Positions 7,798-57,802 of a stretch of DNA of 64,000 bases are shown here, piece by piece. Source of the stretch: Pseudomonas sp. SJZ074 (lineage in GTDB: Bacteria; Pseudomonadota; Gammaproteobacteria; Pseudomonadales; Pseudomonadaceae); assembly GCF_007828215.1 (NCBI RefSeq), contig NZ_VIUE01000001.1, positions 1 through 64,000 on the forward strand, given 5' to 3'. The stretch's first letter is position 1. Each line of letters begins with the position of its first letter. The position numbers and the translations under genes are program-made. Below the pieces are notes generated by a model. That model had not been told where the DNA came from and made no database searches. It saw nothing but the letters and a program-made list of their open reading frames with translations.

Positions 7798-8490
7798 TCA
7801 GGGCAGATAAATCCGGAACACGCCGCCCCCCAGCACACCGCCATTGGCAATTTCGGTCCGCCCGCACACGCCGCCGCGCTGGTGCAGCCCGGCGATCCGC
7901 GCGGCGAAGTAAAGGCCCAGCCCGGTGCTGCCGCTGCTGTGGTTGATACCTTGCACATAATCGGCCTGACGTTCGAGCATTTCAGGCGGATAGCCTTCGC
8001 CGTCGTCATTGATGGTGAGCACCAATTGCCCGGCTTCATCGCTGGCACTGATCAACAACGTCTGCCGGGCGTGGCGAATGGCATTGTTGATGCAGTTGTC
8101 GAGCACCGAAGCGATCAGCTCACGGTCGAAGAAGCCCAGTGGGCTCAACGGATCGACTTCATACGTGACCATGATCCCACGGCTGCGGAACACCTCCCGA
8201 TGGCCGGCCAGCTGCGCCTCGATAAAGTCGTCCAGCTCGTGGTAGGCCGGGTGCAGCGGCAACTGGTTGACACCCAGCTTGTACAGCCCCAGCAGCTGCA
8301 CCATCAAGCCATTGAGGTGGGCGAATTCGAACTCCATCACGCCCTGCTCGGAGGTCTGCTGCACCTCTTCAGGCAAGCGCTCGAGCCACTGCGCATGAGC
8401 CTGCATGAGCAAGGTCAGGGAGTTTTTCATGTCGTGCACGGTCGATGCGATCACCGTGGAAAAATCGAGTGCCTGTTCGCTGTCATTCAT
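7798..8490 (-). CDS. Soluble sensor histidine kinase
   Basis: Two-component kinase of 230 residues without any membrane segment or recognisable sensor domain. It starts almost directly with the phosphoacceptor helix (TVHDMKNSLTLLM, His near residue 19). An HATPase_c domain follows with the N box DNCINNAIRHA, G1 box NDDGEGY and G2 box STGLGLYFA. The ATG I chose overlaps the stop of the preceding TPR response regulator by eight bases, showing tight translational coupling. The regulator is presumably its partner. Signal unknown. Confidence 0.88.
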   Translation of the reverse strand: MNDSEQALDFSTVIASTVHDMKNSLTLLMQAHAQWLERLPEEVQQTSEQGVMEFEFAHLNGLMVQLLGLYKLGVNQLPLHPAYHELDDFIEAQLAGHREVFRSRGIMVTYEVDPLSPLGFFDRELIASVLDNCINNAIRHARQTLLISASDEAGQLVLTINDDGEGYPPEMLERQADYVQGINHSSGSTGLGLYFAARIAGLHQRGGVCGRTEIANGGVLGGGVFRIYLP

Positions 8491-55655: not shown

Positions 55656-55806
55656 GCGTCACCTGTTTGTTTTTATCTGTGACGAAATCGAACCCGACAC
55701 GCTTGTGGCGTGGCGGAATGAGCAAGGCGGATAACCTTGAAGGTGCGTGGGTACGCGAAGGGTCACAGTAAAACGCGGCGCATTGTACACCGCCGACCCT
55801 TGGCTG

Positions 55807-55858
55807 TAGTGGCCTGTACGGCTAATTTGAGTACACGAATTAGCCACACAGGCCACTA
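55807..55858. promoter_or_regulatory. Long composite palindrome upstream of the permease
   Basis: TAGTGGCCTGT ... ACAGGCCACTA outer arms (11 bases, perfect) and GGCTAATT ... AATTAGCC inner arms (8 bases, perfect) around a ten-base loop. It has no T-run, so it is more likely an operator or structured element than a terminator. Apart from this and the boxes at 56054, 55656-56336 contains no gene I can support. Confidence 0.55.
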
Positions 55859-56053
55859 GACACCTGACAAGGCATGAGGCGCATATGACCCTCCTCATGG
55901 ATTGGAAACAAGCCGGCCAACACCTTACGGCACGACGTATGAAAGGTCTGCTGGAAGCTTTTTCTTACATTCATCTGGAGGAGATTTACAAACCGAGCAG
56001 GCGCACGCTTTTCGTAAGCATTCCTTTACGATGCGTAACGAAATTTTTCCACG

Positions 56054-56102
56054 TAGGAATTTTCTGTAGTCCGTCTACAAATTGACGGTAGGAAGTTTCC
56101 TA
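56054..56102 (+). promoter_or_regulatory. Paired TAGGAA-type boxes before the peptide operon
   Basis: TAGGAATTTTCTGT (56054) and TAGGAAGTTTCCTA (56089, perfect palindrome) lie 35 bases apart start to start. A looser relative, TAAGCATTCCTTTA, is at 56015. A TTTAAA at 56127 may be the -10. Similar to RcsB/NarL-class boxes. A 100-base AT-rich stretch follows. Confidence 0.5.
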
Positions 56103-56336
56103 ACATCTGACCCCTGCAGGTGGCTGTTTAAAAAAGCAAAAAAATCTGCGAGAAATAGAATAAAAAGTTCATCTCAAAAAAAATAAAATTATTTTTTGCA
56201 TTCCAAAATCCCGTCGACTAGGTTTTAGCGACTTGCCCAGGCATCGTGCCGGCAAGCCCTGCGGGGCCTGATGCGGTCAGCTTTCACTCACCGGATTACC
56301 CGCAACTTTCCGTAAAAGTCATCTAGGAGATTCACT

Positions 56337-56474
56337 ATGCAAGCACTGGACAAAGACTTGGAAACCGAACTGCAACTGGACGAATGGTTTGAAGCGCCAA
56401 CCCATGAAGCCGCCGTTGAAATGATGCAAGCCGACGCCGTCGTTCCGTTCGGCACGGCGATGTGGCCTCTGTAA
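56337..56474 (+). CDS. Short acidic peptide, possible RiPP precursor
   Basis: 45 residues behind a strong TAGGAG site seven bases from the ATG. The front is acidic and helix-prone (DKDLETELQLDEWFEAP), like a leader peptide. The end is hydrophobic and unlike it: DAVVPFGTAMWPL, with Pro, Gly, Trp and Leu, like a core peptide. No signal peptide. The next gene, 90 bases on, is an M29-like metallopeptidase homologue with its own good ribosome binding site. I do not recognise the family; precursor function is inference. Confidence 0.6.
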   Translation: MQALDKDLETELQLDEWFEAPTHEAAVEMMQADAVVPFGTAMWPL

Positions 56475-56564
56475 GCGCAACCCGGCGGAGTTGATCCGGC
56501 CGGTCGGCTCCGCCACTTTCAGCAGGTTGTCAGGGACGCTCATTCATCAAGGAAGAAAACAAGT

Positions 56565-57530
56565 ATGGACACTCAACGAGCCATCTCACATTTCCTTTAC
56601 TACCTCGGACACCACCCCGCCCTGGCCGGCATCCAGCCCGCCAAGGTACTGCTCGGCCATACCGCCGACTACGAAGCCCTGACCGGCGCCATTGCCGAAC
56701 AAGCCGGCAACGGATCACCCTTCCGCTTCAGCGCCATGCGTCTGGACCTCGAATCCACCGAGCGTCTGTCCAAGGCCATTGCCGACAGCGATCTGTATAT
56801 TTTCTTCTACGACTCTTCCACCTTGCCCCATCCACGGCCTGACGGTCCGGACTTCGTCCGCGCCCTGCAAGGCGTGATGGCGGACAACTGGAAAAAATCG
56901 CTGTTGTTCAAGGACTACGGCGAATATTTCTACGACACCTTCAGCGTCATCCCGCAACGTATCGCCGGGCTCAACAGTCATCTTATCCGGCGCATGTCAC
57001 AAGCAAGCACGCTGAGCTTCCAGGACGAGCACGGCTCGTACTTCGATACGGCACTGGACAGCGTCAAGAAGTGGACCGACATCAACGGCCTCGGCAATTA
57101 CGACCTGGCCCCTGGTGAAATCGCCACTCACAGTGACACCATCAATGGCCGGGTGAGTTTCGTCGGCACATTCCTGAGCACCATCCCGTTCGCACGCAAA
57201 TATGGCGTGCTGCAGTCGCCCCTGGAGCTGTGGATCGAAGACTCCACCATTCAGAAAATCGCTACCGAGGTGCCAGGCCTGGAACACGACTTCAACCGCT
57301 ACCTGGACGCCAACCCGTCCAACCGGTGCATCGAAGAGTTGGGGATCGGCACCAACGAAGGGGTCAAGAGCCTGTATGCCCGCAACGCCGGGTTCGAGGA
57401 GCGACATTGTGGCCTGCACCTGGGACTGGGTGGCGGCGCCAAGGGCAGCCATCACCTGGATCTGATTTTCGAGAGCGGTATGCTGGCGCTGGATAATGAG
57501 CCGATGTTTGATGGGCGGTTTGTGTTTTAA
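56565..57530 (+). CDS. M29 aminopeptidase-like metalloprotein
   Basis: 321 residues. The N-terminal two thirds match nothing I can name. The C-terminal part follows the thermophilic aminopeptidase (AmpS/AmpT, family M29) pattern: APGEIATH, IEELGIGTNEGV, HCGLHLGLGGG and SHHLDLIF. The five metal ligands of that family appear as Glu 185, Glu 258, His 285, His 297 and Asp 299, so a two-metal site should form. It is shorter than typical M29 enzymes (about 410). AAGGAAG precedes the ATG. It lies alone with the short peptide gene, suggesting that it acts on that peptide. Confidence 0.65.
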   Translation: MDTQRAISHFLYYLGHHPALAGIQPAKVLLGHTADYEALTGAIAEQAGNGSPFRFSAMRLDLESTERLSKAIADSDLYIFFYDSSTLPHPRPDGPDFVRALQGVMADNWKKSLLFKDYGEYFYDTFSVIPQRIAGLNSHLIRRMSQASTLSFQDEHGSYFDTALDSVKKWTDINGLGNYDLAPGEIATHSDTINGRVSFVGTFLSTIPFARKYGVLQSPLELWIEDSTIQKIATEVPGLEHDFNRYLDANPSNRCIEELGIGTNEGVKSLYARNAGFEERHCGLHLGLGGGAKGSHHLDLIFESGMLALDNEPMFDGRFVF

Positions 57531-57605
57531 GGGCAGCGTTGAGCGGCAAGCTCAAGCGGCAAGCGAGGGGTGGGTCTGGAAGAGTATGGTTGGGACTGCG
57601 GGCCC

Positions 57606-57703
57606 CTTCGCGGGCAAGCCCGCTCCCACAGTTATCTCAGTGAATGGAAGGTTGGTGAACGCCACCGCCCCAATGTGGGTGCGGGATTGCTCGCGAAAGC
57701 GGT
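57606..57703. repeat. Two REP halves in degenerate arrangement
   Basis: TTCGCGGGCAAGCCCGCTCCCAC at 57606-57631 and GTGGGTGCGGGATTGCTCGCG at 57673-57703; inverted to each other but mutated, an old REPIN. Confidence 0.65.
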
Positions 57704-57734
57704 CTTAGCTACACCCCATCACTCAAGCCAGACC

Positions 57735-57769
57735 AAAAAAAAACGCCAACCCTACGGTTGGCGTTTTTT
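57735..57769. terminator. Bidirectional terminator
   Basis: CGCCAACC-CTAC-GGTTGGCG stem with eight A on the left and six T on the right, between the convergent M29-like gene and rluB. Confidence 0.9.
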
Positions 57770-57802
57770 CTTGCAGCTTGCCGCTAGCAGCTCAAACCCG
57801 CC

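Follow-up and report, generated by a model that had tools for sequence, protein, structure and literature searches.

A conserved gene pair of Pseudomonas and Burkholderia-type bacteria, a short acidic peptide and an M29-derived metalloprotein, as a possible minimal RiPP-type cassette

Background

The M29 aminopeptidases (AmpS, AmpT and PepS) have a common fold with a metal site of six ligands, and their solved chains comprise 397-413 residues. NicX, a 2,5-dihydroxypyridine dioxygenase (7cn3, 7cup), has a small ring compound as its substrate and is not known to be linked with a peptide gene. PQQ and mycofactocin are made by RiPP cofactor pathways, in which a short precursor has a core that is nearly constant between species. 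The proteins to which we liken ours most closely are those of crocagin biosynthesis, for which we draw on PMC10070186. According to this paper, CgnB-type proteins bind the substrate peptide, and in crocagin itself a basic leader meets an acidic patch. CgnB, with the same ligands as M29 enzymes, gave no aminopeptidase activity; it is proposed to remove by elimination the Tyr hydroxyl introduced by CgnC, whereupon the indole nitrogen of Trp attacks. Roughly 100 genomes, those of Beta- and Gammaproteobacteria among them, were reported to carry homologues of CgnB and CgnE; the single-copy homologues have intact metal sites and precursors predicted by RiPPER, and every crocagin-like cluster except crocagin's own carries a glycosyltransferase. 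The word Pseudomonas does not occur in the text of PMC10070186 as searched. Judged by its entry, no match listed in our literature search besides this paper appeared relevant to the pair described here, and the string VVPFGTA from the end of the peptide was not found in that search.

The locus that we analysed lies in a stretch of 64,000 nt of Pseudomonas sp. SJZ074 DNA, called the window here as a whole, and consists of a short peptide gene followed by a gene for an M29-derived metalloprotein. The enzyme has the same six metal ligands as CgnB (6zsv), judged by the residues given in PMC10070186. CgnB and CgnE have chains of 304-310 residues against 321 aa here, and a shortened M29 frame is probably common to them and our enzyme. 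As in crocagin, the gene adjoins a short peptide gene and a Trp lies near the peptide end, where it is invariant in our set. The crocagin precursor, however, is basic and 21 aa long, whereas the peptides here are acidic and have 38-45 aa; its core ends Tyr-Trp, whereas here the Trp is not last and has no preceding Tyr; and neither CgnC nor a second CgnB/CgnE copy was found at the 14 loci compared. Since these precursor and partner features are not shared, we take the working of the pair to resemble that of CgnB and do not class the pair as a crocagin pathway. The predicted fold and the six-ligand site also recall the M29 aminopeptidases, but the window enzyme is about 80 residues shorter than their solved chains and is tied to a peptide gene. 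NicX is the best fold match. As in PQQ and mycofactocin, the peptide has a core that hardly varies between species; unlike those pathways, it has no linked radical-SAM enzyme or leader-recognition protein, and the enzyme family is unrelated.

The kind of locus is thus known in outline from the homologues, intact sites and precursors reported in PMC10070186. As far as we have seen, the strict two-gene layout, the invariant acidic precursor, a second type of pair and a flipped gene order are additions.

Results and discussion

The locus and its surroundings

Direct reading of the window bore out the initial annotation in its coordinates, the 45-codon gene with a strong ribosome binding site, the 90-nt gap, the protein of 321 residues and the peptide sequence itself (Table 1). 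The peptide gene starts with ATG at 56337 and has its stop at 56472-56474, and the spacer occupies 56475-56564 between two genes of the same strand. By their translations, an amino-acid permease gene on one side and a rluB-type gene on the other flank the pair, both on the minus strand. Palindromic repeats 3' of the enzyme gene (57590-57720) are presumably REP-like elements of the Pseudomonas kind. No Rfam family was found in 55700-57800. The genome carrying the window is 6.25 Mb in size, and the enzyme is 96-98% identical to those of P. corrugata and P. mediterranea.

Table 1. Features of the peptide-metalloprotein locus (positions in the window)
Feature	Position	Strand	Basis and remarks
Upstream block (probable promoter or control region)	56192..56237	+	Three short conserved elements; alignment of 17 chosen Pseudomonas loci
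Shine-Dalgarno AGGAG of peptide gene	56325..56329	+	Sequence; AGGAGA kept in the 17-locus alignment
Peptide gene, 45 codons	56337..56474	+	Acidic front, neutral end AVVPFGTAMWPL; sequence, co-occurrence, selection, conservation
G+C-rich hairpin GGCGGAG...CTCCGCC in spacer	56484..56514	+	Folding and survey of 103 distinct spacers
Probable Shine-Dalgarno AGGAAG of enzyme gene	56550..56555	+	Sequence
M29-derived metalloprotein, 321 aa	56565..57530	+	Ligands E185, E258, E279, H285, H297, D299

The upstream block is probably a promoter or control region, and its elements, TTTTTTGCA (56192-56200), ACTAGGTTTT (56217-56226) and CTTGCC (56232-56237), fit no promoter type that we recognised; a sigma-70 scan gave no plus-strand site within the block. 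The spacer hairpin is absent from the list of the terminator scan. G+C-rich stems were nevertheless frequent when spacers were folded. For 103 distinct Pseudomonas spacers the folding energy had a median z of -1.9 and was under -2 in 47 spacers; 67 of the 103 contained a stem of 7 or more pairs, versus 33% of shuffles. A T-rich stretch lay 3' of the stem in 29 of 82 spacers. Together these figures suggest, without proving, a partial terminator; the hairpin is possibly that or a stabiliser of the transcript end.

When the genes near the pair were compared at 14 loci from 7 lineages, the enzyme gene was the only one common to all, with one enzyme per locus. No protease, transporter or oxygenase was common to all lineages in this comparison. 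A response-regulator-like protein occurred near the pair in 4 lineages at scattered distances and looks generic. At one locus (L166), the sequence GATAATGATAATCATTATT at about 8370-8410 resembles a Fur box. It adjoins a gene for an FTR1-like permease and lies some 0.5 kb before the peptide gene.

Co-occurrence within Pseudomonas

The enzyme was found in 143 of 398 genomes of the same genus, near full length in 141 (including G216 and G306, where the gene is in two pieces) and as a remnant only in 2. A separate peptide search of 398 genomes of the genus returned the same 141 at E below 1e-18, plus one more, G377, the two genome lists being compared by hand. Left out of the count were chance peptide matches in G022 and G156 (E 0.06-0.07), second matches of low significance in G334 and G361, the enzyme remnants of G034 and G250, and four genomes of the genus that were met in another search (G524, G533, G567 and G607). 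In all 127 Pseudomonas loci read, some of which represent one genome counted twice, the peptide gene lies 59-94 nt upstream of the enzyme gene; the enzyme start was placed by alignment in a few cases, and individual spacer lengths could therefore err by some bases. Among the named carriers are P. corrugata, P. mediterranea, P. brassicacearum, P. koreensis, P. protegens and P. chlororaphis.

Only short pieces of the enzyme are left in G377, where the peptide gene still stands beside the remains (L140, 6064-6365). The peptide of this genome is altered at A34 and V36, both unaltered in every other 45-codon Pseudomonas peptide read. Enzyme pieces without a peptide were an N-terminal piece in G250 and in G570 and a 30-residue C-terminal piece in G034.

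The pair beyond Pseudomonas

The pair also occurs in another genus of the same family (G398 and G415), in G930, one genome out of three from a distant family (f105), in three named Burkholderia records and in a family taken for Enterobacteriaceae (f181). In a genus of 65 genomes that we take for Burkholderia by sequence likeness (the genus of G1228), 51 genomes have the enzyme, one of them as a fragment only in an assembly that is 82% complete. The other 50 contain 54 enzymes, 49 belonging to type A and 5 to type B, and the peptide search found 54 peptides, again 49 and 5, in the same 50 genomes. For 26 of the 49 type A pairs the DNA was read (L183, L188-L207 and L215-L219), and the rest come from both searches. 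The initial annotation had tied the enzyme to the peptide, and within its own subfamily the enzyme is indeed not widespread without it: the count is 141 of 141 in Pseudomonas and 54 to 54 in the Burkholderia-type genomes.

All six type B loci read share the variant peptide end SAVIPFATALWA. In the tree, which included three of the five Burkholderia type B enzymes, these three cluster with the enterobacterial type B enzyme at a support of 100/100. Given this grouping and the common variant peptide end, the two genes have apparently moved and been duplicated as a unit. Each of the six type B loci has a third gene further downstream in the same orientation (L208:7455-8918, L214:7999-9435 and matching places in L209-L212), which none of the other loci compared contains. 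In its product, TPR repeats are seen below threshold, as is a glycosyltransferase-9-like part (E 0.04 and 0.06). The window's own genome gave no match to this gene, an empty answer that shows little in a search of this kind. With its glycosyltransferase-like third gene, the type B pair offers a natural comparison.

In the genus g308, the peptide was found in 8 of 30 genomes, each time with the enzyme nearby on the same strand. The gene order varies there: the enzyme comes first in five of the eight pairs and the peptide in three. All 30 genomes were searched by peptide only, a design in which peptide-free enzymes other than that of G1202 would escape. In G1202 the enzyme gene abuts a contig end, and neither the 480 nt before it nor the search of the whole genome gave a peptide.

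Enzyme relatives for which no peptide gene was detected are more distant or damaged. Weak M29-like matches with E of 1e-9 or weaker occur in G692, G823 and G662, where the flanks were searched for the peptide motif, and in G1011. A relative in another family of the class (G638, L161/L167) is broken by in-frame stops, and no peptide was found with it. Two distant M29-like proteins, P0003 (L112:7353-8471, minus strand) and P0004 (L113:7001-8128, plus strand), have identities of 24 and 21% and keep all six ligands. Both end in acidic, Cys-containing C-terminal tails with a CCG motif, and P0003 is encoded near cupin and HMGL/DmpG-type aldolase genes.

Metal site, family and fold of the enzyme

The five ligands named in the initial annotation are present, and E279 is added as the sixth, which completes the M29/CgnB set; we take this six-ligand site to be the M29 site. 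The ligands (EEEHHD) are kept in 21 of 21 aligned relatives, including the distant, peptide-free P0003 and P0004. Like the peptides, the enzymes are net acidic. The window enzyme matched nothing in Pfam (including PF02073, Peptidase M29), NCBIfam or PADLOC, nor any of 50,697 phage records; among 14 members, only P0004 matched PF02073, at E 0.4. A profile of 16 relatives gave one weak match in the PDB, 6zsv (E 0.13), over a short stretch with the ligands in register, and a second profile gave 6zsv again (E 0.14), ranked above two plainly unrelated matches and not significant. The Foldseek label of 6zsv is crocagin protein CgnB.

Predicted models were poor, with a mean pLDDT of 56.2 for the enzyme alone and 54.5 for the enzyme fused to the peptide; in the fused model all peptide blocks had a pLDDT of 31 or lower. 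Owing to the shallow alignment (22 rows), neither fold detail nor docking can be read from them. Fold searches with the fused model, poor as it is, placed NicX, M29 peptidases, CgnE and CgnB at Z 10.5-14.3 (CgnE 11.1, CgnB 11.0), the next unrelated row being at 6.9, and Foldseek matches to the same groups had E values of 2e-11 to 3e-5. NicX was the top match of both models, at Z 14.3 at best. With the likewise poor enzyme-only model, NicX and M29 peptidases stood out, and CgnB and CgnE (6zsv, 6zsu) were absent among 50 rows. As far as such models go, the fold searches support the superfamily and do not discriminate between its branches.

Conservation and selection in the peptide

The conservation of the peptide end, which the initial annotation could consider in one strain, extends far beyond it. 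Residues W17, M30, A34, T40 and W43 are invariant in 173 of 173 peptides (duplicates included, the drifted G377 peptide excluded), and the distance from W17 to W43 is 26 positions in every one of them (W-x25-W). The lengths of 38-45 aa reflect 10 to 16 residues before W17 and one or two after W43. P37, F38 and A41 are not absolute, since P37 is replaced by Ala in three Pseudomonas loci, F38 by Val in seven and A41 by Ser in one. The end reads TA(M/L)W plus one or two residues, with TSMW in one peptide. Rare ends are TALWAV in one Burkholderia-type genome (L217, G1326) and VVAFGTAMWPF in three Pseudomonas loci (L117, L119 and L120). The net charge is -7 to -10 in the front and 0 or -1 in the last 12 residues. 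No Pfam, NCBIfam or PADLOC family matched the peptide.

Over codons 13-33 the uncorrected pN/pS was 0.053, and over codons 34-45 it was 0.061; the free codons 1-12 had 0.40, the whole peptide 0.12 and the metal-site region of the enzyme 0.10. The peptide values come from 98 distinct 45-codon peptides (123 of 127 loci, four with 44 codons being dropped) and the enzyme value from 109 distinct stretches (124 of 127 loci). By these codon comparisons, conservation of the peptide exceeds chance and reflects strong constraint at the protein level. A correlation between enzyme and peptide distances (r 0.96, 16 rows) was set aside, as it mostly restates species relatedness.

A possible RiPP-type cassette

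The pair is strict, and its two genes are inherited together and apparently also duplicated and transferred together. They almost certainly form a functional unit. Our preferred explanation, which we hold to be more likely than not, is that the enzyme modifies the peptide covalently or cleaves it, as in RiPP pathways, so that the pair would be a stand-alone RiPP-type cassette. The short gene would then encode a precursor; the CgnB-like protein would bind the acidic front of this precursor (W17 to about residue 33) and, with its metal site, act on the neutral C-terminal stretch AV(V/I)PxGTA(M/L)W. At T40/W43 the enzyme may carry out a dehydration or close a ring, or it may cut nearby. Because the C-terminal stretch hardly varies, the product would probably be one fixed molecule (a signal, a cofactor or a metal ligand) rather than a diversifying antibiotic, and a core that is hardly allowed to change suggests one defined, useful role. 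The hairpin between the genes could let the cell make the peptide in excess of the enzyme.

Several observations favour such a cassette. The G377 peptide has drifted at A34 and V36 where the enzyme has decayed. The matching of enzyme and peptide types, seen in type B sequences, points the same way, as may the type B glycosyltransferase-like gene by analogy with the crocagin-like clusters of PMC10070186. Also in favour are the co-occurrence counts, the five invariant residues with their fixed spacing, the six ligands kept as in CgnB, the presence of CgnB and CgnE among the top fold matches of the poor fused model, and CgnB as the top, though weak, PDB profile match. Counting against it are the missing common protease, transporter or oxygenase, the net acidic charge of both enzyme and peptide, unlike crocagin, and the G1202 enzyme, for which no peptide was found. 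CgnB and CgnE are also missing from the enzyme-only fold rows, and the CgnB profile matches are not significant. To our knowledge, a core this constant is unusual for RiPPs.

The initial annotation had proposed a minimal RiPP system. The strict pair and the conserved peptide end speak for that idea, whereas its remark that no described pathway has this layout was too strong, given the single-copy CgnB/CgnE homologues with RiPPER-predicted precursors in PMC10070186. If the pair is a RiPP pathway, it would be about the smallest possible, with one precursor and one enzyme, and a frequent one, in 141 of 398 sampled genomes of the same genus and 50 of 65 Burkholderia-type genomes. It would also isolate the chemistry of the CgnB family; in crocagin, CgnB works only together with partner proteins.

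A more specific version, which we consider a long shot, is a one-enzyme reaction. T40 has a natural beta-hydroxyl, so a CgnC-type oxygenase would be unnecessary, and with T40 and W43 both invariant, dehydration and Trp capture by one enzyme become conceivable. A CgnB-like di-metal enzyme would dehydrate T40 and the W43 indole would capture it, giving a Thr-Trp ring that might serve as a fixed, shared signal or cofactor.

The peptide may instead be a permanent small subunit, an inhibitor or a metal-delivery partner of an enzyme that acts on another substrate, as NicX does. We judge this unlikely. NicX tops the fold matches of both models, and the whole 27-residue block from W17 to W43 is kept at fixed length, which would fit a folded small subunit too and to that extent speaks against the cassette. 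Yet it is the neutral C-terminal end that is most constant (A34, T40 and W43), the usual place of a RiPP core. CgnB-type proteins, moreover, bind their substrate peptide (PMC10070186), and the spacer hairpin, if a partial terminator, would suggest peptide excess and not a 1:1 complex.

A second alternative to the cassette, and in our view an improbable one, has the enzyme work as a genuine peptidase to trim the peptide or clear it away, the product being an unmodified signal peptide. All six ligands of the catalytic M29 aminopeptidases are kept, and M29 peptidases are among the top fold matches. CgnB, however, showed no aminopeptidase activity with the same ligands, according to PMC10070186; the N-terminus, where an aminopeptidase would attack, is where the peptide is conserved least; and no exporter was common to the lineages of the 14 loci.

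The small size and linkage of the two genes and their scattered distribution among species would also suit a toxin-antitoxin or defence pair, which we regard as very improbable: neither protein matched PADLOC, the enzyme had no match among the 50,697 phage records, and in the Pseudomonas loci with flanks examined the pair keeps a constant place beside the permease gene. We give next to no credence to the short gene as a cis-acting leader peptide at which ribosome stalling would control the enzyme gene through the hairpin, and rejected such an attenuator on the g308 gene order: a short upstream gene, a spacer hairpin and a conserved end whose W and P adjoin the stop would suit it, but the peptide gene lies downstream of the enzyme gene in five of the eight g308 pairs, which excludes it there, the spacer varies in length from 59 to 94 nt, and the constraint acts at the protein level over some 33 residues.
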